Positions 6,966 through 62,863 of a stretch of 64,000 bases of DNA are shown in pieces. The notes beneath the pieces were generated by a model. That model saw nothing but the letters and a program-made list of their open reading frames with translations, did no database searches and had not been told where the DNA came from. The stretch lies in NCBI RefSeq assembly GCF_022458985.1, contig NC_061776.1:2455075-2519074 (forward strand), read 5' to 3'. The stretch's first letter is position 1. Every line of letters starts with the position of its first letter. Source of the DNA: Mugil cephalus. Its lineage: Eukaryota; Chordata; Actinopteri; Mugiliformes; Mugilidae. A program made the translations under genes and the position numbers.

Positions 6966-7522
6966 TGTTACGATCTTACTCGTCTAGGGGAAAAGAGGAC
7001 GCAACACAATACAGCTAACTGGAACTAAAATGTTGTTTATTATCAGGCGTCTAGTGGGATTAATACAAACTCAAGATTTTTGCCTGAAAATGTACAAAAC
7101 GTAAGGAAAAAAAAGGACTCCGTCAGAGCACAATTGTTTGAGGTAACGGTGGAAGGAGAAAGGTTAACACCAACAAAGAACAAAGGGGCTCTGAGTCCCA
7201 TAAAACAAAAACAACAAACTAACACAAAACACTTGGCCCAGACATCTTTCTTTATGACAGAAGCAACACTATAGGAATAAGGCCAACACACAACAAAACG
7301 GTGATGAATGAGACTAATGCCAAAATGGCACAGCATGTGTAAACCTAGGTGGACAACCCTATATACTGGCAAGTGCCAGAAAGTCTGCACTTTAATAGCC
7401 ATGGTCCATCCAGGGCACGAGGATTGGCTAAAGTTTGACCGATAGTCGTAGATCAAGGAAGCTCCAATCAGTCTCAGGGGCGGAGTCGAAGTGTCAAGCA
7501 AAGTGGAGGCAGGCCAGATGAA
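6966..7522 (-). mobile_element. Unclassified repeat, LTR-like, at the 3' end of ZF1
   Basis: Non-coding block that starts where the LINE fragment stops and ends inside the ZF1 zinc-finger exon. Read on the minus strand it has a promoter-like first half, an AATAAA near its end and a terminus in ACA, which would suit a solo LTR of a Ty3/Gypsy-like or related element. I could not confirm paired ends or a target duplication, so it is treated as a decayed fossil of uncertain family. Its junction supplies the last codons of ZF1. Confidence 0.35.
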
Positions 7523-9268
7523 GCTGTGTGAGTTCTCATGTGCATCATTAAAGCACTTCTTTGAAAGAAGGTTTTACCACATGTGTCACAACTGTACGGT
7601 TTCTCACCTGTGTGAATCCTCATGTGTGTCCTTAAATTACTAGCGTTACTGAAATGTTTCCCACATGTCTCACAAGAGTACGGCTTCTCACCTGTGTGAG
7701 TTCTCATGTGCTTCGTTAAAGTACTTCTTTGAGTGAAGGTTTTACTACATGTGCCACAAATGTATGGCTTCTCACCTGTGTGAGTCCTCATGTGCCTCAT
7801 TAAATTACATCTTACAATAAAGGTTTTACCACATGTCTCACAACTGTACGGCTTCTCGCCTGTGTGAGTCCTCCTGTGGTATGTTAATGCTATACTTTGA
7901 TTGAAGGTTTTACCACATGTCTCACAACCATACGGCTTTTCACCTGTGTGAGTCCTCATGTGGTTTGTTAAAGTACTTCTCTGAGTGAAGGTTTTACCAC
8001 ATGTCTCACAACTATACGGCTTCTCACTTGTGTGAATCCTCATGTGTCTTTTTAAACCATTACTTTTACTGAAGGATTTCCCACATGTGTCACAACTGTA
8101 TGGCTTCTCACCTGTATGCGTCCTCATGTGCTTATTCAAATCAATAGTTTGACTGAAATGTTTCCCACATGATTTGCAAGAATGTGGTTTTTCACCGATG
8201 TGATTCCTGCTGTGCGGAATCAAATCACTCCTTTTCCTGAAACTTTTACCACATTTTTTGCAATGATAAGGTGTCTCATCTGTGTGAAATCTGTAATGTT
8301 TCTTCATTCCACACTTGTTCCTAAAAGCTTTTCCACCAATGTCACACGTTACAGACTTTGTACCTGTGTCAGCATCACAATGACTCTGTGACAAAGAGGA
8401 GTTGTCTACATTGTTACTGTGACTTGTGTCTCCATGACGTCTCTTCTTTGTATTCAGCTCTGCATTTCCAGTTGATCCTGAGTCCACATGGTTGATTCCT
8501 TCCAGATCTGGGCTCTCAGATACCTCCTGTTCGTCTTTAAATTGCGGAGGGTCTGGTTCCTCCCGTTTTTCTTTCATCTCTGAAACTTCTGGTTCCTCTT
8601 GCTCCTCTTTTATCTTTACAGGTTCTGATTCCTCCTGTTCCTCTTTAATGTGTGGAGATTCTGGTTCCTCCCATTCCCCCTTTATCTCTGGAGGTTCTGG
8701 TTCCTCTTGTTCCTCTTTTATCACTAGAGGTTCTGGTTCTCCCTGTTCCTCTTCAATCTGTGGAGGTTCTGATTCCTCTTGTTCCTCTTTAATCTGTGGA
8801 GGTTCTGGTTCCTCCTGGTCCAAACTAGGGTTCCTCTCCTGGTTACAGAGCTGCTCCTCAGTGAGAACCTCCTCCTCTGTGCAAACACGTTGCTGTGGGA
8901 GGTCTGGAGGAACAAACAGACACAACATAAAGGAAAACATATCTGAGCAAATATGTCCTACTTTCAATCTTTGTAGCGTTAGCTGTGCTTCTTAGCCTCT
9001 TAGCATGTTATCAACCTTGTAACTGAGCCTCTTTCCTATATGTCTTGTGTTTCCATTCATTAGTTAGTTCATTCAGACCATTCTAGTTCTACTCACCTAT
9101 TCTGTGTAACTTTATCTCAGGTTTCCAGGTGATATCCAGCAGTCTGCGATGACGATCGATCTCTTCCTCGTACTGGACGACAGTTCTTTCAAAGAGTCCG
9201 AATATTTCTTCAGCAGCAGCAGTTAGTCGCTCGATGACCAACTCTCTCAAACTCTCAGATGAAGACAT
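7474..9268 (-). CDS. ZF1, C2H2 zinc-finger protein, two exons
   Basis: Exon 1 is 9097-9268 (ATG at 9268); the intron is 8904-9096, only 193 bp; exon 2 is 7474-8903. The product is 533 residues. Residues 1-57 form the constant N-terminal module ([20 protein letters not shown] ... KLHRI). Residues about 58-190 hold six SUMO-consensus sites (IKEE, IKGE, FKDE) in acidic repeats. About 240-515 holds ten finger units: the first has lost its second Cys (CDIGG) and nine are intact, with contact residues (-1,2,3,6) KSDP, QIDK, KNGR, QSTN, QIAY, VCNR, QSTK, NSNT, QSAM. It is the ZF2 array plus four extra fingers (units 4-7). The normal ending HTGEKxSS is missing: after the last HMRTHT the reading runs into the neighbouring repeat ([16 protein letters not shown]). 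The role, nuclear sequence-specific DNA binding, is inferred from the family. Confidence 0.85.
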
Positions 9269-9396
9269 TGTTACTTCAACAGCTCAAATATTTATCCGGG
9301 ACACGACACAACTCAAACGTCTTGCATTTCGGTCCACAAACATAGAAACACGACAACACAACTAATGGCTTTAAAAATCAAAACAAAAAAACAAAC

Positions 9397-9425
9397 CACT
9401 TCCGCCTGGTGTCCCACTATAAAAT
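9397..9425 (-). promoter_or_regulatory. Conserved core-promoter block of ZF1 (ETS-like site)
   Basis: On the minus strand this reads ATAGTGGGACACCAGGCGGA followed by AGTGG. It lies about 130 bp before the ATG and has close relatives at the same place before ZF2, ZF3 and ZF6. GGCGGAAGTG resembles an ETS-family binding site. Conservation among paralogues suggests, but does not prove, that it marks the transcription start region. Confidence 0.4.
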
Positions 9426-9429
9426 TCCG

Positions 9430-11094: not shown

Positions 11095-13266
11095 AACAAC
11101 TTCTCACCTGTGTCCTCATGTGCTCTGTTAAATTACTTCTTTGAATGAAGGTTTTAACATCTGTCAGAATTCTACGGCTTCTTACCTGTGTGCATCCTCA
11201 TGTGCATCGTCAAAGCACTTCTTTGAATAAAGGTTTTACCACATGTGTCACAACTATACGGCCTCTCACCTGTATGAATCCTCATGTGTATCCTTAAATT
11301 ACTAGTGCTTCCAAAATGTTTCCCACATGTCTTGCAACAGTAGGGCTTCTCACCTGTGTGAGTTATCATGTGCTTCGTTAAAGTACCTCTTTGACTGAAG
11401 GATTTCCCACATGTGTCACAACAGTATGGCTTCTCACCAGTGTGAGTCCTCACGTGCCGAGTCAAATCAATAGTTCGATTGAAACATTTCCCACATGCTT
11501 TGCAACGATATGGTTTTTCACCGGCGTGAGTCTTGGTGTGTGAAATCAAATCACTCCTCTTCCTGAAACTTTTACCACATTTTTTGCAATGACAACACTT
11601 GTTCTTAGAGGCTTTTCCACCAACGTCACATGTTACAAACTTTTTACCTGTATCAGCATTACACTGACTTTCTGACAAGGAAGAGTTGTCGTCATTTTTA
11701 CTCTGACTTGTGTCTCTGTGATGTCTCTTCTTTAGATTCAGCTCTGCATTTCTAGTTGATCCTGAGTTGCTTCCTCCCTGATCTGTGCTCTCAGATACAG
11801 CAGAGTTCTTACAAAGGAGATGATCATCTTTTGGTTCTGGTTCACTATGCTCACTTTCCTCATCAGTAGGAGTCTCAGCAAAGGTATCAGTCTCACAGTT
11901 CAATACAACATGCTCTTCCTGCTGACTGCAGCAGAGTTCATCCTGTTCCTCTTTTGTCTGTGGAGGTTCTGATTCCTCCTGTCCCTCTTTCATCTGTGGA
12001 GGTTCTGGTTCCTCCTGTTCCTCTTTCATCTGTGGAGGTTCTGGTTCCTCCTGTTCCTCTTTTATCTGTGGAGGTTCTGGTTCCTCCTGTTCCTCTTTTA
12101 TGTGTGGAGGTTCAGGTTCCTCCAAACTGGAGTTCCTCTCCTGGTTACAGAGCTGCTGCTCGGTGAGAACCTCCTCCTCTGTGCAGACATGTTGCTGTTG
12201 GAGGTCTGGAGGAACAAACAGACACAACATGAAGTTAACTAAAGTGATGACAGGAAAACACATAGACATACATAAGTAGATGCCGCATTGAGCGCTGAAT
12301 CGTACGTCAACATCGCCGCCATCTTGGTTGTGGCAAAGTGGAGCGATCAGAGAAGATTCCTCATTCATTTTCATGTGGAAGTCTACTAACTGTTTACAGT
12401 ACAAACCAGATCTCACAGCATTACTTTTCACAGGTAAGAATGAAAAGGGAGTTTAATGGGTGGAGTTTAAATGTTCATCAATGCCACCGGTGTAGATACG
12501 TATGCATATGGGTCATTCCTACTATTCAGTGCCATTTGAGTCCCCATGACATACTATGGCGTAGGGTATTTTGGGTAAAAATGGGCTAATACTTATTTCT
12601 AAAAGCTTGGCTTATGTGGGTTAACTGCTCTCTACCATCAAATACAATGATTTGTATGCAGGACTAGTTGAAGTTAAAATAATTGATTTTGATAATAATT
12701 AAAAAAAAAAAAAAATAAAATCTAAATAATTTCATTACTATTTGTTTTCCAAATATATTAGTGTGCGTGTGAATGGGTGATTCTGAGGCATTAACTTAAA
12801 GCACTTTGTAGAAATGCGCTTCATGCAGTTTCATGCAGATTTTCCACATCCAATATGGCGGCGCGCTGACGCATGGCAGCAACTGACCCCCCGCTCAATG
12901 CCGCGTCTATGTCTATGGGAAAACACACCTAAGCAAATGTGTTCTAGTTTCAATCCGTGTAGCGTTAGCTATTTTTAATTAGCCTCTCAGCATGGTAGCA
13001 ACCTTTTAGCTGAGTCTCTTTCCTTTGTGTTTTCTCCAAACTGTGTGTTTCCACACATTAGTTACTTCATTCAGATCATCCTAGTTCTACTCACCTATTC
13101 TGTGTAACTTTATCTCTGGTTTCCAGGTGATATCCAGCAGTCTGCGCTGACGATCGATCTCTTCCTCGTACTGGACGACAGTTCTTTCAAAGAGTCCGAA
13201 TATTTCTTCAGCAGCAGCAGTTAGTCGCTCGATGATCAACTCTCTCAAACTCTCAGATCCAGACAT
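11095..13266 (-). CDS. ZF2, C2H2 zinc-finger protein, two exons, stop before its last finger
   Basis: Exon 1 is 13095-13266; exon 2 runs 11172-12205; the product is 401 residues. The intron (889 bp) holds a MITE. N-terminal module [20 protein letters not shown]. The acidic part has five units with three SUMO-consensus sites; other units have decayed to MKEG and TKEE. The first finger is fused into the second by a deletion after [12 protein letters not shown], leaving five intact fingers (contacts KSDS, RIDR, QGTK, SSNI, QSAM). Reading ends at TGKKP where the usual TAC (Tyr) has become TAG. A degraded sixth finger ending in LLS and TGA remains at 11095-11171. The linker ([10 protein letters not shown], lacking the usual HVD) is shared with ZF8. 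It is probably still a protein, one finger shorter; weak pseudogenisation is possible. Confidence 0.8.
12261..12917. mobile_element. MITE, hAT-like, in the ZF2 intron
   Basis: The ends are inverted: CATAGACATA ... ATGCCGCATTGAGCG at the left and CGCTCAATGCCGCGTCTATG TCTATG at the right, with an outer CGCCGCCAT/ATGGCGGCG pair further in. The 8-bp sequence GGAAAACA stands on both sides (12253-12260 and 12918-12925). The ZF1 intron, without the insert, reads GGAAAACATATCTGAGCAAATATG, a matching empty site. 657 bp, no transposase. An 8-bp duplication and CA...TG ends suit the hAT superfamily. Confidence 0.65.
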
Positions 13267-13412: not shown

Positions 13413-13419
13413 CTCCGAC

Positions 13420-14217: not shown

Positions 14218-15930
14218 ATGTCTTCAAGTGGGAGTTTGAGAGATCTGATGATTGAGCGACAAACTGTTTCTCCAGAAGAAATATTCAAACTCTTTGAAAG
14301 AACTGTCGTCCAGTACGAGGAAGACATCGACCATCAGCGCAGACTGCTGGATATCACCTGGAAACCTGAGATAAAGTTGTACAGAATAGGTGAGTAGAAC
14401 TAGAATGGTGTGAATGAAGTAACTAATGATTGGAAACACACAGTATGGAGAAGACACAGACACACCTGAAGGTTGATGAGATGCCAAGAGGCTAACTAGC
14501 ACAGCTAACCCTACATGGATTTAAACTAGAAGATTTTTGCAAAGCCACGTTTTCCTGTCATCACATTAGTAACCTTTACGTTGTCTCTCTTTGGTCCTCC
14601 AGACCTCCCACATAAACATGTCTGCACAGAGGAGGTTCTTACTGAGCAGCAGCTCTGTAACCAGGAGAGGAACTCCAGTCTGGACCAGGAGGAACCAGAA
14701 CCTCCACAGATAAAAGAGGAACAGGAGGATCCAGAACCTCTTAATTTTAAAGAGGAACAAGCGGAACAAGAACATCCCCAGATGAAAGAGGAACAAGAGG
14801 AACCAGAACCTCTACAGATGAAAGAGGAACAGTGGGCACCAGCATCTCCACAGATTAAAGAGGAACAGGAGGAACTCTTCAGCATTCAGTGGGAAAAACA
14901 TCTTGTACTGAAGCAGGAGATTGATTCCTCGATGGAGACTCCAACTGATGAAGAAAGTGAGCACAGTGACCATTTCCTCTCTTGCAACTCTCCTGTGTCT
15001 GAGAGCTCAGATCAGGGAATAATCAACCATGTAGACTCAGGATCAATGAGAAATTCAGAGCTGAATTTAAGAAAGAGACGTCGCAGAGACACAAGCCACA
15101 GTGATAATGTAAACAACTCTCTCATGTCAGAGAGTCTGTGTGATACTGACACAGGTAGAAAGTTTGTAACATGTGACGTCTGTGGAAAAGCCTTTAAGAA
15201 AAAGTCCGCAATGAAAATGCATTATAGACTCCACACAGGTGAGACACTTTGTCATTGCAACACATTTGGTAAAAGTTTCACAAAGAGAAGTGATTTTATT
15301 TTAAGCACCAGGGTTCACACAGTTGAGACGCCGTTCTCTTGCGAGGCATGCGGGAAACACTTCAGTAAAAGTAACAATTTGACTCGGCACATGAGGACTC
15401 ATACAGGTGAGAAGCCTTACAGCTGTGACACATGTGGTAAAACCTTCAGTCAAAGAAGTACTTTAATGAAACACATGAGGACTCACACAGGTGAAAAGCC
15501 GTACAGTTGTGACACATGTGGTAAAACCTTCAATCAAAGAAGTACTTTAATGAGGCACATGAGGACTCACACAGGTGAGAAACCATACAGTTGTGATATA
15601 TGTGGTAGAACCTTCAATCAAAGTAATCATTTATCAAAACACATGAGGACTCACACAGGTGAGAAGCCATCCTCTTGCAAGACATGTGGGAAATGTTTCA
15701 GTCAAAATAGTGCTTTGACTCAGCACATGAGGACTCACACAGGTGAGAAACCGTACCGTTGTGACACATGTGGTAAAACCTTCACTCAGAGCAATCATTT
15801 ATTGCACCACATAAGGACTCACACAGGTGAGAAACCATTCATTTGCAAGATATGTGGAAAATGTTTTCGTCAACATAATGTTTTGACTAAGCACATGAGG
15901 ACTCACACAGGTGAGAAGTTGTCATCCTGA
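14218..15930 (+). CDS. ZF3, C2H2 zinc-finger protein, two exons
   Basis: Exon 1 14218-14389, intron 213 bp, exon 2 14603-15930; 499 residues. The N-terminal module is the most divergent of the plus-strand set ([20 protein letters not shown] ... KLYRI). The linker has five SUMO-type sites in acidic units (IKEE, FKEE, MKEE, MKEE, IKEE) plus LKQE before the Ser-rich part. Fingers fill about residues 245-495: nine units, of which the second (CNTFGK) has lost a Cys and its His spacing, leaving eight usable (KSAM, KNNR, QSTK, QSTR, QNHK, QSAQ, QNHH, QNVK). Units 4 and 5 are nearly identical at the DNA level, so a recent one-finger duplication is likely. It ends in the family's usual GEKLSS and stop. 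Head-to-head with ZF2, start codons about 950 bp apart; a shared bidirectional control region is possible. Confidence 0.88.
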
Positions 15931-17308: not shown

Positions 17309-18598
<1,290 letters not shown>

Positions 18599-23165: not shown

Positions 23166-25598
23166 ATGTCTGGAGCTGAGGGTTTGAGAGAGTTGATCAT
23201 CGAGCGACTAACTGCTGCTGCCGAAGAAATATTCGGACTCTTTGAAAGAACTGTCGTCCAGTACGAGAAAGAGATCGATCGTCAGCGCAGACTGCTGGAT
23301 ATCACCTGGAAACCTGAGATAAAGTTACACAGAATAGGTGAGTAGAACCAGAATGATGTGAATTAACTTAATTTGTCGGGAGTAATGTATCACGAAAGTA
23401 ACTTAATTACTTTTTGCTGTAACGCGGTAATGTATGCATTAAAAAAGAAAGAAATTACCCGTTACAAATGTCAGTAACGCGCGTTACAATGGATTTTAAA
23501 GCCGGAAATTAATTAATTAAGTTGTGTGTTTTTATACAAATTCGTGAATGCAGGGCACAGTCAGACTGTACATTCGGATATGAAGAACATTATAGTTAAG
23601 TTCACTTAAAAAGGAGGAAGTTCGATCTCAGCAGATCTCTGAATTCTGATTATAGTGACTAGAAATACTGATTATCACACAAAGTATAAAAAGTCAAAAT
23701 AATTCTCACAACGCGCCTAAAGTACTGTATCACTACCACAGTATGTATTGCGCTAGCTTAGTAATTATGCCATTCCAAACTGGAAATTAAAAATACACCA
23801 TGCTGTCTATTGTTTACCTGCAGTGTACTGAGAAAAAAACAAACAACAAACAAAAAAAAAACTTCACGTCGGTCTCACGGCGGGAGGTCCGACCCGGGAC
23901 TTCTGGCGATGTGAAAACGCACCAAAGGCAAGTCGACCCGGTTCTGAAAATCAAATCTCGGGCCAACTCGAGATTTTGTATTGCTGCAGCTTTTTTATGT
24001 ACTGCAAACTGCAGTACTGCAACTGCATTTTCGATTTTAAAGTGGTATAAATGAGCTACACTGAATGCAATGAGATCTATTGAGAACGCAATCCATATTC
24101 AATATATATTCAAAATACAACATTGAATTTATATCATATTCTATATTAAATCAATTTCCAGTTATTGTGGTGAAAGTAATGCAAAAGTAATGTAATAATG
24201 CGCTGGACAGTTCTTAACCAAGCTTTAGTCTCATTTTAGTTTCCTTCTCTTCTTGATGCATGTCAATGATCTGTCAGTGATGCAGTAATTAACCAATAGG
24301 AGGCTTGGACCTGTTAAATTAGATCAAGGTGAAAACTTTTTTGGTGGTGTTTTCCTGTCATCACATTAGTAACTTTTATGTTTTGTCTCTTTGTACTTCC
24401 AGACCTCCCACAGCAACATATATGCATAGAAGAGGAGGTTCTTACTCAGCAGCAGCTCTGTAAGTGGGAGAGGAATTTAAATCTGGAACAGGAGGAACCA
24501 GAACCTCCACAGATGGAAGACAAACAGGAAGGAGCAGAACCTTCAAAGATGAAAGAGGAACAGGAGGAACCAGAACATCCTCAGATTAAAGGGGAACAGA
24601 AGGAACCAGAACCTCCACAGATGGAAGACAAACAGGAGGGAGCAGAACCTTCACAGATGAAAGAGGAACAGGAGGAACCAGAACATCCTCAGATTAAAGG
24701 GGAACAGAAGGCACCAGAACCTCCACAGATTAAAGAGGAACAGGAGGAACTCTGCAGCAGTCAGCAGGAAGAACATCTTATATTGAACTGGGACACTGAT
24801 TCCTTGATGGAGACTCCTTATGATGAAGAAAGAAAGTGCAGTGACCAGCTCCTCTCTCTTAACTCTTTTGTATCTGAGAGCATAGATCAGGAAGGAATCA
24901 ACCATGTAGACTTGGGATCAATTAGAAATGCAGAGCTAAATCCAAAGAAGAGACGTCGCACCGACACAAGTTACAGTAACAATGTAGACAACTCTCCGTC
25001 AGAGAGCTGGTGTGATACTGACACGGGTAAAAAGTCTAGAACATGTGACATCTGTGGAAAAGCCTTTAAGAACAAGTCTGTAATGTCTCTTCATCACAGA
25101 CTTTTCCACATGTGTGAGACACCTTATCATTGCAAGAAATGTGGGAAAAGTTTCATGCATAGGAGGGGTTTGATTTCACATGCATGTAGGAAACATTTGA
25201 GTCAAACTAGTGATGTGAATAAGCACACAAGGACTCAAACACGTGATAGGCCATATGGTTGTGACACATGTGGTAAAAAGTTCAAGCAAAGAAGTGCTCT
25301 AACAGAGCACATGAGGACTCACACAGGTGAGAAGCCCTATGGTTGTGACACATGTGGTAAATCCTTCAGCCGAAATAGTATCTTAACTCAGCACATGAGG
25401 ATTCACACAGGTGAGAAGCCATATCCTTGCAAAACTTGTGGGAAATGTTTCCGGCATTGTAGTGGTTTGAATAAGCACATAAGGACTCACACAGGTGAGA
25501 AGCCATACAGTTGTGACGCATGTGGTAAAACCTTCATTCAAAGTGATAAGTTAAAAAGGCATATGAGGACTCACACAAGTAAGAAGCTGTCGTCCTAA
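23166..25598 (+). CDS. ZF6, C2H2 zinc-finger protein, two exons
   Basis: Exon 1 23166-23337, exon 2 24403-25598, 455 residues. N-terminal module [20 protein letters not shown]. The acidic part has its own 43-residue internal duplication (two copies of [20 protein letters not shown]... HPQIKGEQK), giving five SUMO-consensus sites (MKEE, IKGE twice each, IKEE once). Finger region about 280-452: a first finger with an enlarged His spacing (HHRLFH), a second unit in which a deletion has joined the helix of one finger to the tail of another ([16 protein letters not shown]), then four clean fingers (QSAE, RSIQ, HSGK, QDKR). The RSIQ finger also occurs twice in ZF7, suggesting exchange. The intron (1,065 bp) is enlarged by a repeat. 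Confidence 0.86.
23365..24230. repeat. Repeat inserted in the ZF6 intron
   Basis: Absent from the short introns of ZF1 and ZF3. It is rich in GTAACGCG/TTACTTTTTGCTGTAACGC motifs near 23400-23490 and has GTAATGCAAAAGTAATGTAA near its right end (24176-24196), so the two edges share TAATG/TTACTTTT motifs in opposite senses, as in hAT-type MITEs. No transposase is visible. Confidence 0.35.
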
Positions 25599-36379: not shown

Positions 36380-36908
36380 GACACAGATCCTTGCAAATCC
36401 TCGCAAAGCATGTGGGAAACGTTTCACTCGAACTGTTGATTTGAATAAGCACATGACGACTCACATAGGTGAGAAGACGCACACTTGTGACGCATGTGGG
36501 AAAATATTCAGGCGAAGAAAGAACCTAAAGGTCCATATGAGGATTCACACAGATGAGAAACCGTACGGTTGTGACACATGTGATAAAAGGTTCAAGTGAA
36601 GGACTGCTTTCATGGACCACATGAAGACTCACACAGGTGAAAAGCCGTACGTTTGTGACACCTGTGGCAAAGCCTTTACTCAACACGGTCATTTAACAAT
36701 ACACATAAGGACTCATACAGGTGAGAAGCCGTACAGTTGTGAAACATGTGGCCAAACTTTCAGTCAAAGTAATACTTTAACTGTTCATGTGAGAACTCAC
36801 ACAGGTGAGAAGCTGTACAGTTGTGACACATTTGGTAAAACCTTTAATCGACGCAGTCATTTACACAAACACATGAGGACTCACACAAGTGAGAATATGT
36901 CATCCTGA
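36380..36908 (+). pseudogene. ZF9, 3' part of a zinc-finger gene
   Basis: Six finger units with no exon 1 and no acidic part, joined to LINE sequence on the left. Units include [40 protein letters not shown]-stop, then [43 protein letters not shown] and a last unit with Cys changed to Phe ([17 protein letters not shown]). TGA at about 36597 stands where ZF10 has TAC (RFRYRTAFMDH). Order and residues follow ZF10, so it is a truncated sister of it. Confidence 0.8.
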
Positions 36909-41200: not shown

Positions 41201-43122
41201 TGAAAATCACCACAGTGGTAGCTGTAGAGTATGCGGAAAACAATTTGATTCTTTTCTTAATTAAGTTTTCAAATCTGACTATGCAGAAATGAGTTGGATT
41301 CTGAATATGCTTCAATAATTATGTTCTGTCACTTAGTTTTAATCATTAAATAGAATGTAGTAAAATAACAACAAAGTAATGACTGATGTATGTATTTCAA
41401 CAAATGAAAATAAGAAGAAAAATATAGACTCCCGAGTTTACGGGATGCACTTGAATGCACCATAAAGCCGCTCAAACGCTTTACCGTCCGATGCGATGTA
41501 GACGGGCACTCGATTTTCAAGTGTAGATAGCGCGACCGTGCCTCGCCGAAGCGCAGATGGCGTGACTGCAGTAACGCTACGTGGGTTTAAACTAGAACAT
41601 ATTCGCTCAGATGTGTTGTCCTTTCATCACATTAGTAACCTTTATGTTATGTCTCTTTGTCCCTCCAGACCTCCAACATCAACATGTCTGCACAGAGGAG
41701 GAAGTTCTCACTGAGCAGCAGCTCTGTAACCAGGAGATGAACTCCAGTCTGGACCAGGAGGGACCAGAACCTCAACAGATTAACGAGGAACAGGGGGAAC
41801 TAAAACCCACACTGGTGAAAGAGGAGCAGGAGGAACCAGAACCTCCACAGATGAAAGAAGAACGGGAGGAACTAGAAACAACACTGGTGAAAAAGGAAGA
41901 GGAGGAACCAGAACCTCCACAGATGAAAGAGGAACAGGAGGAACCAGAACCTCCACAGTTTAAAGAGGAACAGGATGAAGTCTGCAGCAGTCAGCAAGAA
42001 GAACATCTTGTATTGAACTGTGAGACTGATATCTTTGTTGAGGCGCCTACTGATGAGCAAAGTGAGCACAGTGAACCAGAACCAAAAAATGATCATCTCT
42101 GTCAGAACTCTGCTGTATCTGAGAGCCCAGATCAGGAGGGAAGCAACCATGTAGACTGTGAATCAGGTAAAAAGTCAAAAAATGTAAAAAATGTATCACT
42201 TCATGCCCGTGCAACAGACTTTAAGAACAAGTTTGTAATGAAAAGACATTACAGACACCACATGGGTGAGACACCTTACCTTGACACATGTGGGAAAATC
42301 TTCAGTCAAAGAGAGAACTTAAAGGTCCACATGAGGACTCACACAGGTGAGAAGCCGTACGCTTGTGATGCATGTGGTAAAGCCTTTACTCAACAAGGTA
42401 GTTTAAAAATACACATGAGGACTCACACAGGTGAGAAACCATACGGTTGTGATGCATGTGGTAAAATCTTCAGTTATAGACATGGCTTAAAGGTCCACAT
42501 GAGGACTCACACAGGTGAGAAGCCGTACGGTTGTGATGCATGTGGTAAAATCTTCAGTCGTAGACATAGCTTAAAGATCCACATGAGGACTCACACAGGT
42601 GAGAAACCGTACGCTTGTGACAAATGTGATGAAAGGTTTAGGTACAGGACTGCTTTCATGGACCACATGAAGACTCACACAGGTGAAAAGCGGTGTGTTT
42701 GTGACATATGTGGTAAAGCCTTTCCTCAACAAGGTCTTTTAAAAATACACATGAGGACTCACACAGGTGAGAAGCCGTACAGTTGTGACACATGTGGTAA
42801 AACCTTCATTCGAAATTCTTATTTAACTACTCACGTGAGGATTCACACAGGTCAGAAGCCATACATTTGCAAGACATGTGGTAAAACCTTCACTCAAAAT
42901 TCTCATTTAATTTCTCATGTGAGGACTCACACAGGTCAGAAGCCATATATTTGTGAAACATGTGGCAAAACCTTCAGTCATAGTCATTCTTTAACTGTTC
43001 ACATTGGGATTCACACAGGTGAGAAGCTGAACAGTTGTGACGTATGTGGTAAAACCTTTATTCACCGCAGTAGTTTACACAAACACATGAGGACTCACAT
43101 AGGTGAGAATGTATCGTCCTGA
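38215..43122 (+). CDS. ZF10, C2H2 zinc-finger protein, two exons split by a fold-back transposon
   Basis: Exon 1 38215-38386, exon 2 41669-43122, 541 residues; the intron (3,282 bp) is 93 percent one transposon. N-terminal module [20 protein letters not shown] ... RTVAQYEEE. The acidic part mixes VKEE, MKEE, VKKE, MKEE and FKEE. The first finger unit has lost one Cys codon (YLDTCGKIF). Nine intact fingers follow: QGSI, YHGV, RHSI, YTAD, QGLI, RSYT, QSHS, HHSV, HSSK. Units 1-3 and 5 share an unusual KIH/KVH ending and CDACGK zinc knuckles, a signature otherwise seen only in pseudogene ZF9. It ends GENVSS like ZF13. With the insert removed at its target duplication the intron would be about 220 bp, like those of ZF1, ZF3 and ZF8. 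Confidence 0.86.
38865..39895 (+). repeat. Left internal tandem array of the fold-back element
   Basis: Units recur every 164-171 bp, marked by GATGTATATGGGCAGATT at about 38951, 39121, 39289, 39458, 39623 and, decayed, 39787. Each also has TTGTTTTCTGCAAACTCCAC, CAGCTACCACTGT and TTCACTGCATCA. The later units are more worn. Confidence 0.85.
39900..41225 (-). repeat. Right internal tandem array, opposite orientation
   Basis: The same unit inverted, marked by GCCCATATACATCATTCAT-type motifs at about 39941, 40111, 40279, 40450, 40620, 40792, 40960 and 41129, about eight units at 168-172 bp. Neighbouring units at 40550-40720 and 40870-41040 are almost the same, so the array has recently shuffled or expanded. 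Confidence 0.85.
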
Positions 43123-44896: not shown

Positions 44897-47800
44897 ATGT
44901 CTTCAATTGAGAGTTCGACAGAGCTGTTCATCGAGCCACTAACTGCTGCTGCTGACGAAATATTCAAACTCTTTGAAAGAACCATCCAGTCGGACAAAGA
45001 GATCGATCGTAAGCGCAGACTGCAGGATATCACCTGGAATCCCGAGATAAAGTTACACAGAATAGGTGAGTAGAACCAGAATGGCGAGCACAGGACGGGA
45101 GGCGCGGACTCACTGGTTATTAGTACGAAGGAGATGTAGCAGAGTTCCGAGCTTCTGGACTATAAAACCAATTTACAGCCTCCAACAGTTTAATAATCCA
45201 CCAATATTATTTCCGTTTACATCCCGTTCCTCGCGGTCAGCGCATTTCATCAATTTGCATTTTGTGGGAAAAAAGAAAGAAAAGCAAAAAGCTTTAGCTG
45301 GCTTTACAACTCACCGTGTCGGAACCGTGAAGCGGTCCATGTCCCGGTGGAAGAAGACCAGGAGTAAACGACTTAGACTGCCGGCCAGAAACAGCGCTAA
45401 GAACAAGCAGTGGGATCACTGCTTTCATACGACTATCGTGAAGTGGTGAGGTTACTCAAAGCACTAAATGAGATGTTCACTGTATTCGTGTTTTCGTCAC
45501 GTTCCCATACAATTGCTTGGGGTTTCGTTTATGTTTCGTTGCAGTGTCTCATTTTAGATGAGTTTGGTGTATTACATGTTCAGAATGATGCATGCTGTCA
45601 TGCGTTTAGACCGTCTGTAGCACACGGACCTCGCCTTAGAGCCCCGTACAGGGGTCGCTCGGGTCACAGTGGTTAAGCTAGAAGAGATTGCTCAGATGTG
45701 TTTTCTTGTCATAGGGATGTAAATGTTATGATTTTATCGATGCCGATATGATACTCCTTATTGATACCGATATTTATCGATGCTCTTATTGATACTACGT
45801 TGCAATGCAGAGTAAACAATAAAGACATTACAAGATGTTAAAAGATTCAGACAAGAAGCCGGGCGCCGCTGACACGGCCCTGCAGTCAGTAATGTTTGGC
45901 GGACGAACTTTTGCTGCATATTTGCAGCGCACTCCTTCAGTTTTATATTGTGGGTGCCCCTACAAGTGCTTCATGCAGTGTGTTTACATGCACGTGAAAA
46001 AAAAAAATGAATTATTGCCTTAATCGGACTGTAACAGGAGAACTTTACTTTACTCCACGTTACTCCGATTAAAATCGGAGTTCTCATTATCCGATTGAGA
46101 CACCCAGATAATGCGATTGGAATCAGAGTTTTCAATCGGATAATGCGTTTGCGCATACTCCACAACCACTGCACTGGCGTGTGACCTCGGAACAAAAACC
46201 TCCAAAAAAGCCAGTTTTAGAAGAAGAGGGGAAACACGGAGCCACTAGAAGAACCGTCTGAGGGATAACGCGGATCTTACCTGCACCAGAAGTAGCGCGA
46301 ACATTACGTACGAGATTAAAAATGTACTATTATCCGCCTGGTTGTTGTTTGAAATGCTGTTCTGCCACATGAACGACTCTTGTTTATTATATCACGCAAT
46401 AGGTCAACCGGAAATCGGCCCGTATTAACGTGGTATTATCCCTCTGAAAATACATGTATCGCCACCTAGTGTGGAGGAGGAGAACAGTTATTCGATTTTC
46501 TTGCTGCATATAAACTGGGACAAGGACTGTAGTCAGGAAGTCGAATTTTGAGCATAGCTCGATTGAGCTCTGCATGTAAACACACTGATGATGTTACTGG
46601 TGTTGCCTTCCTTGGACAAAAATTGTCTCAGACAAATGCATCGAAATGAATCTTAGTCAACTTTGATAAAGTCGGGCCACACTTTGGATCGCTTACACCA
46701 GGTGTATTCAATTGCAATTCAAAGAGGTCCAGTTACTAAAATTTCCTCCCAGCAAAGGTCCAAATCTAATGTCACTCGAAATAGTGTACCCTGATGTAAA
46801 TAAAATCAACAACGTATGTAAATTTCTATATCATTTATTGTCAAATTTCAAGTGTTTTCAAAGTAATAGCCTATACTTTTAACATACCAATAAGTCTGAA
46901 CTTATAGAACTACAATCATTTTGATTGGCTTGGCCATTGATGATGAGCCAGCAGCAGCGGTGCGTCATCATTACCCTGGTGGCAACTTTTTTTTTTGAAA
47001 GCGCAACTTCCCAGTGTTCACATTTTGTACTTCATCGGTGAGTTACGGTAATTCAAATACCGCAAGCTTCTTTTTGTGCGCACACGGATGTTCAAGTCTT
47101 GAAGGGTTAATATTATCATTGGGTCCGTGTCTGGACCGGTCCCGCCATTTGGTGATGCCTGGTTTAGACCTTTCCGCGGACATGATCAGTCAACTAGGTG
47201 CTGCATCATCACCTACAGACAGTGGTGATGTTATGATTACGTGACAGTTAGGTAGACAGACGTTCAAAAAGTACAGATAACAGTGTTAACAATACCGGTA
47301 CTCGGTATACATCCCTAGTCATCATATTAGTAACCTTCATGCTGTGTGTCTTTGTCCCTGCAGACCTCCCACAGCAACATGTCTACATAGAGGAGGTTCT
47401 CACTGAACAGCAGCTCTTTAACCAGGTTAGGAAGTCCAGTCTGAACCAGGAGGAACCAGAACCTCTACAGATTAAAGAGGAACAGGAGGAACCAGAGCAT
47501 CCACAGATTAAGGAGGAACAAGAGGAACCAGAACCTCCACATATTAAAGAGGAACAAGAGGAACTAGAACCCCCACATATTAAAGATGAAAAAGAGGAAC
47601 CAGAACCTCCACAGATTAAAGAGGAACAGGATGAACCAGAACCTCCACAGATTAAAGAGGAACAGGAGGAACTTGACAGCATTCAGCAGGAAGAACATCT
47701 TGAACTGAACTATGAGATTGATTTCTTGATGAAGACTCCTACTGATGAGCAAAGTGAGCATAGTGAACCAGGACCAAACAATGATCATCTCCTCTCTCAG

Positions 47801-49653: not shown

Positions 49654-52600
49654 ATGTCTTCAATTGAGAGTTCGACAGAGCTGTTCATCGAGCCACTAAC
49701 TGCTGCTGCTGACGAAATATTCAAACTCTTTGAAAGAACCATCCAGTCAGACGAAAAGATCGATCGTAAGCGCAGACTGCAGGATATCACCTGGAATCCC
49801 GAGATAAAGTTACACAGAATAGGTGAGTAGAACCAGAATGGCGAGCACAGGACGGGAGGCGCGGACTCACTGGTTATTAGTACGAAGGAGATGTAGCAGA
49901 GTTCCGAGCGTCTGGACTATAGAACCAAGTTACAGCCTCCAACAGTTTAATAATCCACCAATATTATTTCCGTTTACATCCCGTTCCTCGCGGTCAGCGC
50001 GTTTCATCAATTTGCATTTTGTGGGAAAAAAGAAAGAAAAGCAAAAAGTTTTAGCTGGCTTTACAACTCACCGTGTCGGAACCGTGAAGCGGTCCATGTC
50101 CCGGTGGAAGAAGACCAGGAGTAAACGACTTAGACTGCCGGCCAGAAACAGCGCTAAGAACAAGCAGTGGGATCACTGCTTTCATACGACTATCGTGAAG
50201 TCGTGAGGTTACTCAAAGCACTAAATGAGATGTTCACTGTATTCGTGTTTTCGTCACGTTCCCATACAATTGCTTGGGGTTTCGTTTATGTTTCGTTGCA
50301 GTGTCTCATTTTAGATGAGTTTGGTGTATTACATGTTCAGAATGATGCATGCTGTCATGCGTTTAGACCGTCTGTAGCACACGGACCTCGCCTTAGAGCC
50401 CCGTACAGGGGTCGCTCGGGTCACAGTGGTTAAGCTAGAAGAGATTGCTCAGATGTGTTTTCTTGTCATAGGGATGTAAATGTTATGATTTTATCGATGC
50501 CGATATGATACTCCTTATTGATACCGATATTTATCGATGCTCTTATTGATACTACGCTGCAATGCAGAGTAAACAATTAAGACATTACAAGATGTTAAAA
50601 GATTCAGACAAGAAGCCGGGCGCCGCTGGCACGGCCCTGCAGTCAGTAATGTTTGGCGGACGAACTTTTGCTGCATATTTGCAGCGCACTCCTTCAGTTT
50701 TATATTGTGGGTGCCCCTACAAGTGCTTCATGCAGTGTGTTTACATGCACGTGAAAAAATCGTTATTAGGTAGACGTTACTCCGATTCTCATTATCCGAT
50801 TGAGACACCCAGATATTGCGATTGGAATCAGAGTTTTCAATCGCATAATGCATTTGCGCATACTCCACAACCACTGCACTGGCGTGTGACCTCGGAATAA
50901 AAACTTCGAAGAAAGCCAGTTTTAGAAGAAGAGGGGAAACACGGAGCCAATCGAAGAACCGTCTGAGGGATAACGCGGATCTTACCTGCACCAGAAGTAG
51001 CGCGAACATTACGTACGAGATTAAAAATGTATTATTATCAGTCTGGTTGTTGTTTGAAATGCTGTTCTGCCACATGAACGACTCTTGTTTATTATATCAC
51101 GCAATAGGTCAACCGGAAATCGGCCCGTATTAACGTGGTATTATCCCTCTGAAAAGGCATGTATCGCCACCTAGTGTGGAGGAGGAGAACAGTTATTCTT
51201 CTAGTTATTTTGAGCATAGCTCGATTGAGCTCTGCATGTAAACGCACTGATGATGTTACTGGTGTTGCCTCCCTTGGACGAAAATTGTGTCAGATAAATG
51301 TTGCATCGAAATGAATCTTAGTCAACTTTGATAAAGTGGGGCCACACTTTGGATCGCTTAGACCAGGTGTATTCAATTTCAATTTAAAGAGGTCCAGTTA
51401 CTAAAATTTCCTCCCAGCAAAGGTCCGAATCTAATGTCACTCGAAATAGTGTACCCTGATGTAAATAAAATCAACAACGTATGTAAATTTCTATATCATT
51501 TATTGTCAAATTTCAAGTGTTTTCAAAGTAATAGCCTATACTTTTAACATACCAATAAGTCTGAACTTATAGAACTACAATCAATTTGATTGGCTTGGCC
51601 ATTGATGATGCTCCGACACTCTCTTCCTGGGGCTCCGCGATTGTGCATCACTCCTCAACCTCGAGCCAGCAGCAGCGGTGCATCATCTTTACCCTGATGG
51701 CAACTTTTTTTTTCGAAAGCGCAACTTCCCATTGTTCAGCCACACTTTGTATTCCATCGGTGAGTTGCCGTAATTCAAATACCGCAAGCTTCTTTTTGTG
51801 CGCACACGGATGTTCAAGTCTTAAACAGTTAATATTATCATTGGGTCCGTGCCTGGACCGGTCCCGCCATTTGGTGATGCCTGGTTTAGACCTTTTCGCG
51901 GACATGATCAGTCAACTAGGTGCTGCATCATCACCTATCGACAGTGGTAGTGTTATGATTACGTGACAGTTAGGTAGACAGACGTTCAAAAAGTACAGAT
52001 AACAGTGTTATTAATAACAATACTGGTACTCGGTATACATCCCTAGTCATCATATTAGTAACTTTCATGCTGTGTCTCTTTGTCCCTGCAGACCTCCCAC
52101 AGCAACATGTCTACACAGAGGAGGTTCTCACTGAACAGCAGCTCTGTAACCAGGTTAGGAAGTCCAGTCTGAACCAGGAGGAACCAGAACCTCTACAGAT
52201 TAAAGAGGAACAAGAGGAACCAGAACCTCCACATATTAAAGAGGAACAAGAGGAACTAGAACCTCCTCATATTAAAGAGGAACTAGAACCTCCTCATATT
52301 AAAGAGGAACCAGAACCTCCACATATTAAAGAGGAACAAGAGGAGCCAGAACCTTTGGATATTAAAGAGGAACAAGAGGAGCCAGAACCTCCACATATTA
52401 AAGAGGAAAAAGAGGAACCAGAAACTCCACAGATTAAAGAGGAACAAGAGGAACCAGAACCTCCACATATTAAAGAGGAAAAGGAGGAACCAGAACCTCC
52501 AGAGATTAAAGAGGAACAGGATGAACCAGAACCTCCACAGATGAAAGAGGAACAGGATGAACAAGAACCTCCACAAATTAAAGAGGAACAAGAGGAACTT

Positions 52601-56066: not shown

Positions 56067-57641
56067 ATGTCTTCAACTGAGAGTTTAACAGAGCTGTTCA
56101 TCGAGCCACTAACTGCTGCTGCTGAAGAAATATTCAAACTCTTTGAAAGAACTGCCATCCAGTGCGACGAAGAGATCGATCGTCAGCGCAGACTGCTGGA
56201 TATCACCTGGAATCCCGAGATAAAGTTACACAGAATAGGTGAGTAGAACTAGATTGATCTGAATGAACTAGAAATGAATGAAATGGAAACACATAGTATG
56301 GAGAAATCACAGAGGAAAGCTACAAGGCTGCTAACATGCTAACGATCACAGCTAACGTTGCATGGTTTCGACTCGACGTCTAAGGTATTTTCTGCCTCCT
56401 GTGCGAAAATGACATATATACATGTGTTTTCTGTATTTTCTGCCTCCTGTGCGAAAATGACATATATAAATGTGTTATTTAAAGCAACCTTTATGCTGTA
56501 TCTCTTTGTCCCTGCAGACCTCCCACAGCAACATGTCTACACAGAGGAGGAGGTTCTCACTGAACAGCAGTTCTGTAACCAGGTCAGGAAGTCCATTGTG
56601 GATCAGGATGAACCAGAACCTCTACAGATTAAAGAGGAACAGGAGGAACCAGAGCATCTGCAGATTAAAGAGGAACAAGAGGAACCAGAACCTCCACACA
56701 TTAAAAGGGAACAGGAGGATCAAGAACTTCCACAGATGAAAGAGGAACAGGAGGAACCAGAACCTCCAGAGATTAAAGAGGAACAGAAGGAACTCTGCAG
56801 CAGTCAGCAGGAAGAACATCTTGAACTGAACTATGAGACGGATTCCTTTGAGGAAAGTGACCACAGTGAACTAGAACCAGATAATGACCACCTTCTCTCT
56901 CAGAATTTCAATCAAACTGTTGATTTGAATAAGCACATGAGGACTTACACGGGTGTGAAGAAGTACGTTTGTGACACATGTGGTGAAAACTTCACTGAAA
57001 GACGTACTTTAACAAAGCACATGAGGACTCACACAGGTGAGAAACGGTATGGTTGTGACACATGTGGTAAAACCTTTAATCGACGCAGTAATTTACACAA
57101 ACACATGAAGATTCACACAGGTGAGAAGCCGTACGGTTGTGACACATGTGGCAAAACCTTCACTGACAGAACTACTTTAACACACCACATGAGGACTCAC
57201 ACAGGTGAGAAGCCATATGGTTGTGAAACATGTGGCAAAATGTTCAATAAAAGATGTATTTTAACTATTCATGTAAGGACTCACACAGGAGAGAAGCCAT
57301 ACAGTTGTGACACATGTGGTAAAACCTTTACTGAACCAAGTAATTTTAAAAAGCACATCAGGACTCACACAGGTGAGAAGCCGTATGGTTGTGATACATG
57401 TGGTAAAACCTTCAGTCAAAGAAGTACTTTAACTGATCACATGAGGACTCACACAGGAGAGAAGCCGTACAGTTGTGACACATGTGATAAAACCTTCAAT
57501 CGAAGAACTCACTTAACAACTCACATGAGGACTCATACAGGTGAAAAGCCATATGCTATGAAACGTGGTAAAACCTTCACTGAAAGAGGTACGTTAACTG
57601 GTTACATGAGAACTCACACAGGTGAGAATGTGTCGTCTTGA
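56067..57641 (+). CDS. ZF13, C2H2 zinc-finger protein, two exons
   Basis: Exon 1 56067-56238 (57 codons, FERTAIQCDEEID; keeps the PLTAAAEE and TWNPE changes of ZF11/12 but not their codon loss), exon 2 56518-57641; 431 residues. Five SUMO-consensus sites (IKEE, IKEE, IKRE, MKEE, IKEE). The linker is cut short: LLSQN joins directly to [10 protein letters not shown], deleting the usual Ser/Lys-rich stretch and the front of a finger. Seven intact fingers: ERTK, RSNK, DTTH, KCII, ESNK, QSTD, RTHT. The last unit is ruined (YAMKRGKTF loses both Cys; GYMRTH loses a His). It is close to the form from which ZF11/12 arose. The 279-bp intron contains a 48-bp tandem duplication at 56382-56476. Confidence 0.86.
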
Positions 57642-57985: not shown

Positions 57986-57989
57986 GGGG

Positions 57990-58635: not shown

Positions 58636-58639
58636 GTGT

Positions 58640-60145: not shown

Positions 60146-60149
60146 TCCC

Positions 60150-60400
60150 GAGCAGAAAGCAATGTAGGTTTCACTGTAGAGAACCTACCTGGGTGAAAAA
60201 GGAAAGATAACACACAACCTCCTGAATGGAACATGGTTAATGGATACGTTTTATTTATTTATTTATTTATTTATTGTGAGTTTTTGTTTGTTTCACTGAT
60301 GAACGGATCCATACTCCAGTCCGGTAGGTGGCGGTAATATGCCTACAAGTTGGATTTCACGCGCAAATCAATCCAAAAGAAGAAGAATAAAAACCGGCCG
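60150..60400 (+). mobile_element. I-type LINE 3' tail upstream of ZF14
   Basis: TAGAGAACCTACCTGGGTGA, CACAACCTCCTGAATGGAAC, TCCATACTCCAGTCCGGTAG, GTGGCGGTAATATGCCTACA and CAATCCAAAAGAAGAAGAAT. Best preserved copy of the tail; it ends about 70 bp before the ZF14 ATG. Confidence 0.7.
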
Positions 60401-60461
60401 CACTTGACGGTTGTGTCGTGTCGTCGTGTCCCATATCAATGTCTGAACTGTTGAAGTAACA

Positions 60462-62863
60462 ATGTCTTCATCTGAGAGTTTGAGAGAGTTGATCCTCGAG
60501 CGACTAACTGCTGCTGCTGAAGAAATATTCGGACTCTTTGAAAGAACTGTCGTCCAGTACGAGGAAGAGATCGATCGTCAGCGCAGACTGCTGGATATCA
60601 CCTGGAAACCTGAGATAAAGTTACACAGAATAGGTGAGTACAGGTAGAACGGTTTAAATGAACTAATTAATTAATGGAAACACGCAGTATGGAGAAGAAG
60701 AGGAAAGACACTCAGCTAGAAGATTGATAATATATGCCAAGAGCCCAACTATCACAGCTAACGCTGCATGGATTTAGACTTGGACAGATTTTAATGATCC
60801 CCGAACGAAGTTACTTTGTCACCGTAGTTTCCTGCACATAAAAGGAAACACTCATAAAAACCACAAGAAAGATACAATAAGATTACCGTAAAATATTAAT
60901 AAATAGTGTCATGATCATGAGCAAATATACAAAAAGTAGTTATATAGTGTCCAAGGTAATGTGGTCATTTGGCCAGTTGCATAGCAACAGCGGCACGGAT
61001 CGTGTCATGTTGTGTCCTTATCCGCTGAGGGAGGGATGTAAACTCAAACGGAGTGTGTCCGCCCGTAGAGTCTGAAGCCGGGCACAGACTTATTGTGGTC
61101 CAATGAATCAGGTCTCCAAAGCTATTTCATAACACACAAGTCCATCCATTCTGCTGCCAAAGACCTCCCGTTCCCCAAGAATCCGGACAGTACCGCGACC
61201 CGAACCTCCTTCTCCGCTCCGCCACCTCCAACTCCAGACTGGCATCCCCAGGACTTTTCTTAAAGTTCAGCGGGCAGCTCGGTGGACACGGACAGCGCTA
61301 GCGGCCGATCTCTGCAACACACCACCGGACACAGCGGCCGCTCCGCTGAACTCCACAGCCAAAAGAAAAAAGGAAAATACAAAACGAGGTTGATTGGCTC
61401 AAGGCAAAGAAAAACAGCAACACGTCAAACCGACATGAAGCTAGTGGCGAAATGCAGCCACTTTTTGAGGCGCATTTTTCAATAAATAAGTAAAATAAAA
61501 TAAAATAAAAAAAATATCTGGTCATATGTGTTTTCCCATCATCACATTAGTAACCTTTATGCATTATCTCTTTGCCCCCCCAGAAGTCCCACAGGAATAT
61601 ATCTGCACAAAGGAGGAAGTTCTTACTGAGCAGCAGCTCTGTAACCAGGAGAGGAACTCCAGTCTGGACCAGGAGGAACCAGAACCTCCACAGATTAAAG
61701 AGGAACAAGAGGAACTAGAACCTCCACAGATTAAAGAGGAACAGGATGACCTCTCCAGCATTCAGCAGGAAGAGCATCTGGTTTTGAATCAGAAAACTGA
61801 TTCCTTGATGGAGACTCCTACTGACATGGAAAGTGAGCACAGTGACCCAGAACCAAACAGTGACCAGCTTCTCCCTCACAACTCTCCAGAAGCTCAGAGA
61901 ACAAATAAGGAAGGAAGCAACCATGTAGACTCAGGATCAACTAGAAATGCAGAGCTGAATCCAAAGAAGAGACATCGCAGAGACACAAGCCACAGTAACA
62001 ATGTAGACATCTCTCCTGTGTCAGAAAGTCTGTGTGATACTGACACTGCAAAAAAGCATATAACATGTGACGTCTGTGGAAAAGCCTTTAAGAACATGTC
62101 TGTAATGAAGAGACATAATAGACTTCACACAGTTGAGACACCTCATCATTGCCACACATATGGTGAACGTTTCACGCAGAGTAGTAGTTTGCTTTTACAT
62201 ACCACAACTCACACAGGCGAAAAGCTGTACAGTTGTACAGTTACCACATGTGGTAAAAACTTCACTTCAAGTACTACTTTAACAAAGCACATGAAGACTC
62301 ACACAGGCGGGAAGCCACATGGTTGTGACAAGTGTGCTAAAACCTTCAATCAAAGAAGTAATTTAACAAAACACATGAGGACTCACACAGGAGAGAAGCC
62401 GTACGTTTGTGACACATGTAGTAAAGCCTTCACTCACAATTTTAATTTAAGGATGCACATGAGGACTCACACAGGAGAGAAGCCATACGGTTGCGACACA
62501 TGTGGTAAAACCTTTGCTCATAGTTTTAATTTAAGGATGCACATGAGGACTCACACAGGTGAGAAGCCGTACACTTGTAACACATGTGGTAAAACCTTCA
62601 CCCAAAGTGTTAATTTAATGAAGCACATGAGGACTCACACAGGTGAGAAGCCATACGGTTGTGACACATGTGGTAAAACCTTCACTCAAAGTTTTAATTT
62701 AACAATGCACATGAGGACTCACACAGGTGAGAAGCCGTATTCTTGCAAGACATGTGGGAAACATTTCAGTCAAACTAGTCATTTAAAGACACATGTGAAG
62801 ACTCACACAGGTGAAAATTTGTCATCCTGTCATTTGATGGAATTATTTTCTAAGAAAAATTGA
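60462..62863 (+). CDS. ZF14, C2H2 zinc-finger protein, two exons
   Basis: Exon 1 60462-60633, exon 2 61584-62863; 483 residues. The N-terminal module is at consensus ([20 protein letters not shown] ... KLHRI). The splice joint gives Glu-Val-Pro instead of Asp-Leu-Pro because exon 2 starts AA-GTC. The acidic region is the shortest, two units with IKEE. Finger region about 225-470: NSVR, a degenerate unit (CHTYGERF), one with four residues between its cysteines (CTVTTC; STTK), then QSNK, HFNM, HFNM, QVNK, QFNM, QSHT. The HFNM pair and QFNM are a recent internal expansion. AATAAA follows one base after the stop (62864-62869). The intron holds an LINE 3' scrap (near 60790) and R-X copy 3. Confidence 0.88.
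60965..61485 (-). repeat. Dispersed repeat R-X, inverted copy 3 in the ZF14 intron
   Basis: Reverse-complement partner of 59245-59740. Together the two copies bracket exon 1 of ZF14 as an inverted pair about 1.2 kb apart. A 67-codon open frame here is not supported as a gene. Confidence 0.55.

Follow-up and report, generated by a model that had tools for sequence, protein, structure and literature searches.

Within a stretch of 64,000 nucleotides (nt) of the Mugil cephalus genome (NC_061776.1, C7:2455075-2519074; hereafter the window), which contains a tandem cluster of two-exon C2H2 zinc-finger genes, the linker between a conserved N-terminal domain and the fingers is built of tandem 12-residue units around psi-K-x-E, the core of SUMO-acceptor sites (psi being the hydrophobic position). 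On the basis of sequence and codon-level constraint, we propose with moderate confidence that the linker encoded by exon 2 strings together, in tandem, extended SUMO-acceptor sites of the negatively charged amino-acid-dependent sumoylation motif (NDSM) type in a large fish C2H2 family. The residues expected to matter for SUMO attachment are largely those that evolution keeps.

Period-36 arrays are found by Tandem Repeats Finder at 12 places in the window, and an in-frame parse resolves the 12 linkers into 70 units of 12 residues (36 nt), 58 of them with an intact psi-K-x-E. The tandem units described in a first-pass annotation of this DNA are therefore real, and its counts by eye equal our counts of intact motifs for 11 of 12 linkers; none was given for the linker with a broken frame. 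The arrays are the following, with the end of the open reading frame (ORF) and the matching exon 1.

8521..8808, minus strand: 8 units, 6 intact; ORF ends at 7474; exon 1 at 9098-9268
11937..12116, minus strand: 5 units, 3 intact; ORF ends at 11172; exon 1 at 13096-13266
14695..14874, plus strand: 5 units, 5 intact; ORF ends at 15930; exon 1 at 14218-14388
17714..17857, plus strand: 4 in-frame units, 2 intact, in a frame-broken gene (17645); stop at 17896; partial exon 1 at 17312-17404
24498..24749, plus strand: 7 units, 5 intact, with a 108-nt higher-order repeat; ORF ends at 25598; exon 1 at 23166-23336
30980..31159, plus strand: 5 units, 4 intact; ORF ends at 32827; exon 1 at 26813-26983
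34060..34239, plus strand: 5 units, 3 intact; ORF ends at 35220; exon 1 at 33572-33742
41764..41979, plus strand: 6 units, 5 intact; ORF ends at 43122; exon 1 at 38215-38385
47456..47671, plus strand: 6 units, 6 intact; ORF ends at 48934; exon 1 at 44897-45064
52184..52597, plus strand: 12 units, 12 intact, two of them of 27 nt; ORF ends at 53797; exon 1 at 49654-49821
56613..56792, plus strand: 5 units, 5 intact; ORF ends at 57641; exon 1 at 56067-56237
61679..61750, plus strand: 2 units, 2 intact; ORF ends at 62863; exon 1 at 60462-60632

The units lie head to tail and the arrays differ in whole 36-nt steps, apart from the two 27-nt units, which agrees with the in-frame minisatellite proposed earlier. 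That every protein of the cluster carries an array is true of the 12 linkers and goes too far for two loci: no frame of a finger block at ~36450-36895 contains a linker, nor does an exon-1 match lie alongside, and the frame-broken linker at 17714-17857 hits its stop with no in-frame fingers. Some genes, e.g. the one at 14626, have a second psi-K-x-E (VLKQE) after the array. Among 10 finger-bearing window genes with this block its lysine is kept in one and is asparagine in nine, and no clear compensation was seen for this site.

In the sampled arrays psi-K-x-E was observed 208 times as compared to 11.8 +/- 3.3 in composition-preserving shuffles. Since the repeat itself makes such an excess trivial, the informative test is one of codons. 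Our sample held 251 units from 50 linkers of the window and of fetched loci, which is part of the family in one genome; units shorter than 36 nt (4/251) were left out of the codon tests, and linkers missed by the exon-2 start pattern (e.g. L030) lie outside the 251. The 185 distinct 36-mers were placed on a minimum spanning tree and changes were counted codon by codon, edges of more than five changes (5 edges) remaining uncounted. Expectations came from a neutral spectrum, taken from 68 local matching pairs with 35,577 aligned non-coding bases in all and scaled to the synonymous changes; possible haplotype duplicates are included and coding stretches were crudely masked. The minimum-spanning-tree counts and the main spectrum table omit genes 26 and 31 (single unit, lysine lost), gene 48 and all but the first units of genes 50 and 51. 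The subset and bootstrap counts, as well as a FastTree phylogeny with Fitch counting, omit all units of these five genes. In a restored count, genes 26 and 31 and the first units of 50 and 51 were returned and one misregistered unit was removed; its max-edge-8 rows also count longer edges. The unit finder scored proline above lysine, glutamate and isoleucine and left the last three residues unscored, so the choice of units alone should not make K and E(+5) look conserved and proline neutral.

Amino-acid changes at the motif lysine (K) were observed 11 times versus 27.6 expected (0.40), at E(+2) 14 versus 31.8 (0.44), at E(+5), residue 12 of the unit (E12), 13 versus 31.8 (0.41) and at E2, which lies at +7 from the lysine of the preceding unit, 13 versus 31.8 (0.41). 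The other two glutamate positions, x(+1) and E(+4), each changed 25 times versus 32.2 (0.78), and proline and glutamine together were neutral (148 versus 152.1, 0.97). The restored count agrees (K 12 versus 27.6, E(+2) 14 and E(+5) 14, each versus 31.8), and FastTree with Fitch, on finger-bearing genes only, gave 0.33 for K, 0.43 for E(+2), 0.39 for E(+5), 0.88 for x and 0.95 for E(+4). The rate at K differs from that at P and Q with p = 0.002, the three kept from the two free glutamates with p = 0.004. The psi position stays hydrophobic: over all genes, changes that break hydrophobicity numbered 4 versus 12.5 and those that keep it 20 versus 15.1 (p = 0.006), and the FastTree count on finger-bearing genes found one breaking and 12 keeping events. 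Changes of K to R were absent (0 versus 5.2 expected). The low rates at K, E(+2), E(+5) and E2 persist when the count is confined to finger-bearing genes, to loci outside the window, to middle units or to short edges. When genes were bootstrapped, the ratio to P and Q was 0.38 (0.23-0.53) for K, 0.40 (0.24-0.51) for E(+2), 0.42 (0.25-0.60) for E(+5) and 0.74 (0.49-0.96) for x, and the ratio of E(+2) to x was 0.55 (0.32-0.89). Of 12 registers, a set resembling the phosphorylation-dependent sumoylation motif (PDSM; positions -1, 0, +2 and +5) carries the strongest constraint in three tables. Over the whole unit, amino-acid-changing substitutions run at 0.74 of neutral.

The first-pass annotation had stated that K and E of the motif are kept above their surroundings. 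This holds, with K kept in 222/247 units and E(+2) in 227/247, and E12 (219/247) and E2 (217/247) are nearly as well kept. The codon comparison, which had been proposed beforehand and was run here in one genome, finds K and E(+2) constrained and P and Q neutral; an absence of constraint on K and E relative to their neighbours was looked for within this genome and not found.

The same procedure applied to 354 fingers gave 0.1 of neutral for F, 0.2 for L and 0.3 for G, in line with the known behaviour of this fold at residues that the finger search left free; no weight can be put on the zeros at Cys and His, which the search pattern itself imposes. At the helix positions that contact DNA in C2H2 fingers, +3 and +6, changes ran at 1.7 and 2.3 times neutral with the structural F and L nearly fixed, an arms-race-like signature. 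Several other approaches were set aside. Plain conservation percentages are uninformative in a homogenised repeat. An early matched-codon comparison, E(+2) with E(+5) and x(+1) with E(+4), seemed to speak against the motif, E(+2) and E(+5) being equally kept. A spectrum drawn from the other codons of the unit pointed in the same direction as the final one and was replaced, having only one T site to draw on; with the non-coding spectrum from outside the units, P and Q stand apart from K, psi and three glutamates. A deficit of stop codons in the units is an artefact of sampling open frames, and a strict count of 196 synergy-control motifs included some sites repeatedly. The higher share of motif-bearing units in finger-bearing than in other genes (176/203 versus 27/39, p = 0.015) is a weak comparison, the independent genes being few and one unit of gene 37 misregistered.

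An NDSM consists of psi-K-x-E/D followed by a variable acidic stretch, and the PDSM (psi-K-x-E/D-x-x-S-P) is described as a convertible form. In the accounts available, loss of a natural glutamate at +5 of NR5A1 is reported to lower SUMOylation by 37-53% (PMC3856066), and a phospho-mimicking glutamate at +5 of MEF2C to raise it in vitro (PMC1386686); according to the discussion of the latter paper, this MEF2C mutant is less SUMOylated than wild type in vivo. The fish units match psi-K-x-E-x-x-[E/D] in 193/237 cases, and +5 is acidic in 193/201 units with psi-K-x-E. The core of the NDSM is thus present in the 58 intact window units, with psi and K constrained, and the downstream acid is constrained as well, with +5 at 0.39-0.48 of neutral in the main sets and 0.77 in the window alone. 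A unit run into the next reads psi-K-x-E-x-x-E-P-E, a fixed-charge form of psi-K-x-E-x-x-S-P. With its charge fixed, the unit is predicted to be a good Ubc9 substrate without a kinase.

A number of observations weigh against the SUMO reading. Constraint on E2 and E12 is as strong as on E(+2), a pattern that the core psi-K-x-E alone does not explain, so that the case rests on the extended motif, whose +5 and +7 positions were matched to the literature only after the numbers had been seen. Over all genes the bare psi-K-x-E register ranks 2 of 12. The freedom of x(+1) is unstable (0.84 in finger-bearing genes, 0.57 outside the window) and rests on longer edges, given that on short edges alone it changes 5 times versus 14.7 (0.34), as low as E(+2) (0.41); the binomial comparison of E(+2) with x(+1) gives p = 0.11. 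In the window alone, where numbers are small, K stands at 5 versus 7.9 (0.63) and E(+5) at 7 versus 9.1 (0.77). Changes of K to E are neutral (5 versus 5.2) and those of K to T unreduced. The constrained glutamates are mostly GAA and the free ones GAG, a confound that is partly broken: E to K occurs 0 times at E2 and 9 times at x8 in the same AGA consensus context, so mutation alone does not explain the split. E2 of the first unit, which has no preceding lysine, is equally kept (29/35 versus 140/161, p = 0.59). Loss of E(+5) after loss of K, 7/16 versus 10/168 in raw units, becomes weak once related units are collapsed (3/10 versus 10/135, p = 0.047), and joint decay of E(+2) and E(+5) after loss of K has p = 0.15 after collapsing. 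Two of 41 finger-bearing genes lack a strict motif, gene 26 (INEEQKK) and gene 35 (IKEDEEE). The flanking prolines drift, and units of one gene family are not independent.

One rival is a plain acidic, disordered spacer, in which the minisatellite would do no more than hold the fingers away from the N-terminal domain and supply negative charge between them, the lysine being without function. In its favour, the units are strongly acidic, many of their positions drift, K to E is not reduced, and longer arrays go loosely with more fingers (Spearman 0.41, p = 0.008, n = 41 finger-bearing genes, relatedness uncorrected). Loss of the only basic residue of the consensus should be harmless to such a spacer, yet K changes at 0.40-0.44 of neutral and never to R, psi is kept hydrophobic and, in most versions of the count, two of the five glutamates are freer to change. 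We regard the spacer as unlikely. Somewhat less likely still is another short linear motif, E-x3-psi-K-x-E-x2-E, acting as a docking peptide for a co-factor without being a SUMO site. It would account for constraint on E2 and E12 besides the SUMO core, but the constrained positions coincide with the published NDSM/PDSM layout, and a salt bridge formed by K along a helix should depend on E(+4), whose rate is 0.78-0.95 of neutral. We know of no such co-factor.

The SUMO-array reading has to be seen within the plan of the genes. Exon 1 encodes a conserved N-terminal domain of 57 residues, with 89% mean column identity and 28 invariant columns among 11 full or near-full window copies; the twelfth match (17312-17404) covers 31 residues only and is paired with the frame-broken gene. 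Paired by position, there are 12 exon-1 matches for 12 linkers. The donor G/GTGAG (the slash marks the exon end) directly follows the exon-1 match in 12/12, and all 12 exon 2 begin after a CAG acceptor with AC or AA, from which a phase-1 junction of the two exons is predicted. One copy represents the domain.

60462..60632, plus strand: representative exon 1, 57-residue domain; donor ATAG/GTGAGT, predicted to join exon 2 (acceptor CAG) in phase 1

Exon 2 runs from a 32-residue start block through the unit array and an 18-residue block, present in 10/11 finger-bearing window genes, to the fingers, which by a simple pattern number 5 to 13 per window gene. In the genome (634.8 Mb, 24 contigs) the exon-1 query has at least 113 matches and the exon-2 query at least 160, mostly in the same clusters on C7, C1, C10, C22 and C8, with a few elsewhere; both counts are lower bounds in which pseudogenes and possible haplotype duplicates are included. 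At least 100 matches (150/167 candidates scored) came from a four-unit query, all within or beside the family clusters on C7 and C1 and one on C22. A Pfam scan of one exon 1 (60462-60632 only) found no family at E <= 1, and a sequence search of the PDB with the exon-1 profile nothing convincing (best E 0.28). For two exon-2 ORFs, KRAB was not among the best 25 of 29 and the best 25 of 28 Pfam families.

Ray-finned fish are reported to be without KRAB-ZNFs and TRIM28 (PMC11603059), and TRIM33 and KRAB-like or FiNZ domains have been proposed instead (PMC11603059, PMC9101882, PMC10547256). The suggestion that the array takes the place of a KRAB box draws on this absence and on reports that KAP1/TRIM28 works via auto-SUMOylation, needed for binding of SETDB1 and NuRD (PMC6701479), so that a linker bearing SUMO could bypass TRIM28. 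As stated it is not supported. A conserved exon-1 domain stands beside 12/12 linkers (one partial) and occupies the KRAB/FiNZ place, for which, judged by position, it is a better candidate than the linker; paralogues on C10 moreover keep a single unit, so a long array is not needed family-wide. A SUMO array serving as the KRAB substitute of this family is accordingly improbable, and with the exon-1 domain in the KRAB/FiNZ place the linker is more likely a second module. The other part of the proposal, a putative adjustable SUMO platform, is supported in so far as the units fit the NDSM, K and E(+2) are constrained, psi stays hydrophobic and near-identical copies differ in length by one whole in-frame unit.

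Across the genes sampled in the genome, array length ranges from 1 to about 20 units and strict motifs per protein from 0 to about 14. The C10 linkers L015, L026 and L029 have one unit each in the sequences as read, to which the parser adds spurious ones; the C1 linker L030, missed by the exon-2 start pattern and read separately, has nine; and the C7 gene at 2543614 has nineteen and one further unit after them. As the divergent C10 genes have a single unit, the array may be derived from an older one-site state. Genes 2589942 and 2606636 have 6 and 5 units and are identical in 1500/1500 nt after the array and in 892/895 in the intron. They belong to C7:2584203-2616981 (L038-L041), where blocks 2584203-2600431 and 2600932-2616981, 99.1-99.9% identical, meet at a gap of 500 N and hold the same genes in frame-intact and frame-broken versions. 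The two blocks may be a haplotypic duplication. If two haplotypes do lie side by side, the difference of 6 and 5 units would be an allelic length polymorphism, or else an assembly error in the repeat. The window neighbours 47387 and 52115 have 6 and 12 units, with introns 96% identical and 84% identity after the array, and other close pairs have equal numbers (e.g. 8 and 8, 3 and 3).

Near-identical copies that differ by one unit, together with GAA/GAG-rich sequence just inside the exon-2 acceptor, would also suit a purine-rich DNA- or RNA-level element, an exonic splicing enhancer or recombination-prone minisatellite with the protein repeat as by-product, but synonymous changes are near expectation at K (5 versus 5.2) and the constrained glutamates (E2 9, E(+2) 3, E(+5) 5, each versus 5.2) and amino-acid changes there are cut by more than half, which makes an RNA-level cause unlikely and the element as a whole very improbable.

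If the linker is a SUMO-site array, its growth and shrinkage by whole in-frame 36-nt units means that the number of acceptor lysines varies between close paralogues. In cells, SUMO would be attached to the unit lysines; carried at several sites by a protein that its fingers tether to DNA, it might then gather SUMO-binding co-repressors, e.g. SETDB1 or NuRD; and the array would act beside the exon-1 domain, not instead of it. A bolder and quite speculative version, to which we give a minor chance, is that of a copy-number-tunable SUMO platform. Minisatellite slippage would set the number of constitutive, kinase-independent sites, the scaffold would take the role that SUMOylated TRIM28 has in tetrapods and recruit SETDB1/NuRD to transposons, and the length of the array would tune the strength of repression as a heritable and fast-evolving dial, polymorphic within the species.

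The family bears on the silencing of transposons in ray-finned fish, which are reported to lack KRAB and TRIM28. A large family (at least 113 exon-1 matches) whose linker consists of selected SUMO-motif units is a concrete and cheap test case. If true, the family would present SUMO-site valency as a natural series, with 1 to about 20 units in proteins that are otherwise alike, and by analogy a finger protein carrying its own SUMO sites could shorten the TRIM28-SETDB1/NuRD path. Among the literature matches listed for fish, zinc fingers, SUMO and repeats, which cover few subscription journals, no title or opening of an abstract describes such an array.

Two further features of the window are recorded here. 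A long inverted repeat at 38700-41394 has arms of 631 nt (38700-39330 and 40764-41394; the search began at 38700) that are 96% complementary, and includes a satellite of ~170 nt in opposite orientations; in the gene that carries the array at 41764, it separates exon 1 (38215-38385) from exon 2. At 2443-4202, a TRIM-like gene (RING, B-box, coiled coil, PRY, SPRY) extends across two overlapping frames and is apparently frame-broken.

In frog C2H2 proteins, the Xenopus finger-associated repeats (FAR) are acidic tandem repeats N-terminal to the fingers, some with an IKEE core, and have longer, unrelated spacers; no paper on FAR was found in the literature searched. With FiNZ-ZNFs of cyprinids and actinopterygian KRAB-like ZNFs, the present family shares an N-terminal domain, FiNZ being described in its own exon upstream of the finger exon (PMC10547256, PMC11603059, PMC9101882), and fast-changing base-contacting finger residues. 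By description, not by sequence, FiNZ has 28 residues as compared to 57 in this exon 1, and the word SUMO is absent from the accessible text of PMC10547256 and PMC11603059. The synergy-control motif, a SUMO site flanked by proline or glycine that is described as limiting synergy at promoters with several sites (PMC3554661), resembles the fish units in that prolines lie on both sides of 137/208 motif occurrences. It differs in that the prolines of the fish units are near neutral (0.84-1.00), so these flanks do not look selected. With the NDSM and PDSM the array units share psi, K, E(+2) and an acidic +5, all present and constrained. In ZSCAN21, a mammalian C2H2 protein, the lysine of a predicted N-terminal NDSM is reported as a SUMOylation site (PMC12084422). 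In the sources available MEF2C, NR5A1 and ZSCAN21 are discussed as individual sites, whereas the fish site, alike in sequence and predicted to be conjugated to SUMO, is the unit of an in-frame minisatellite.

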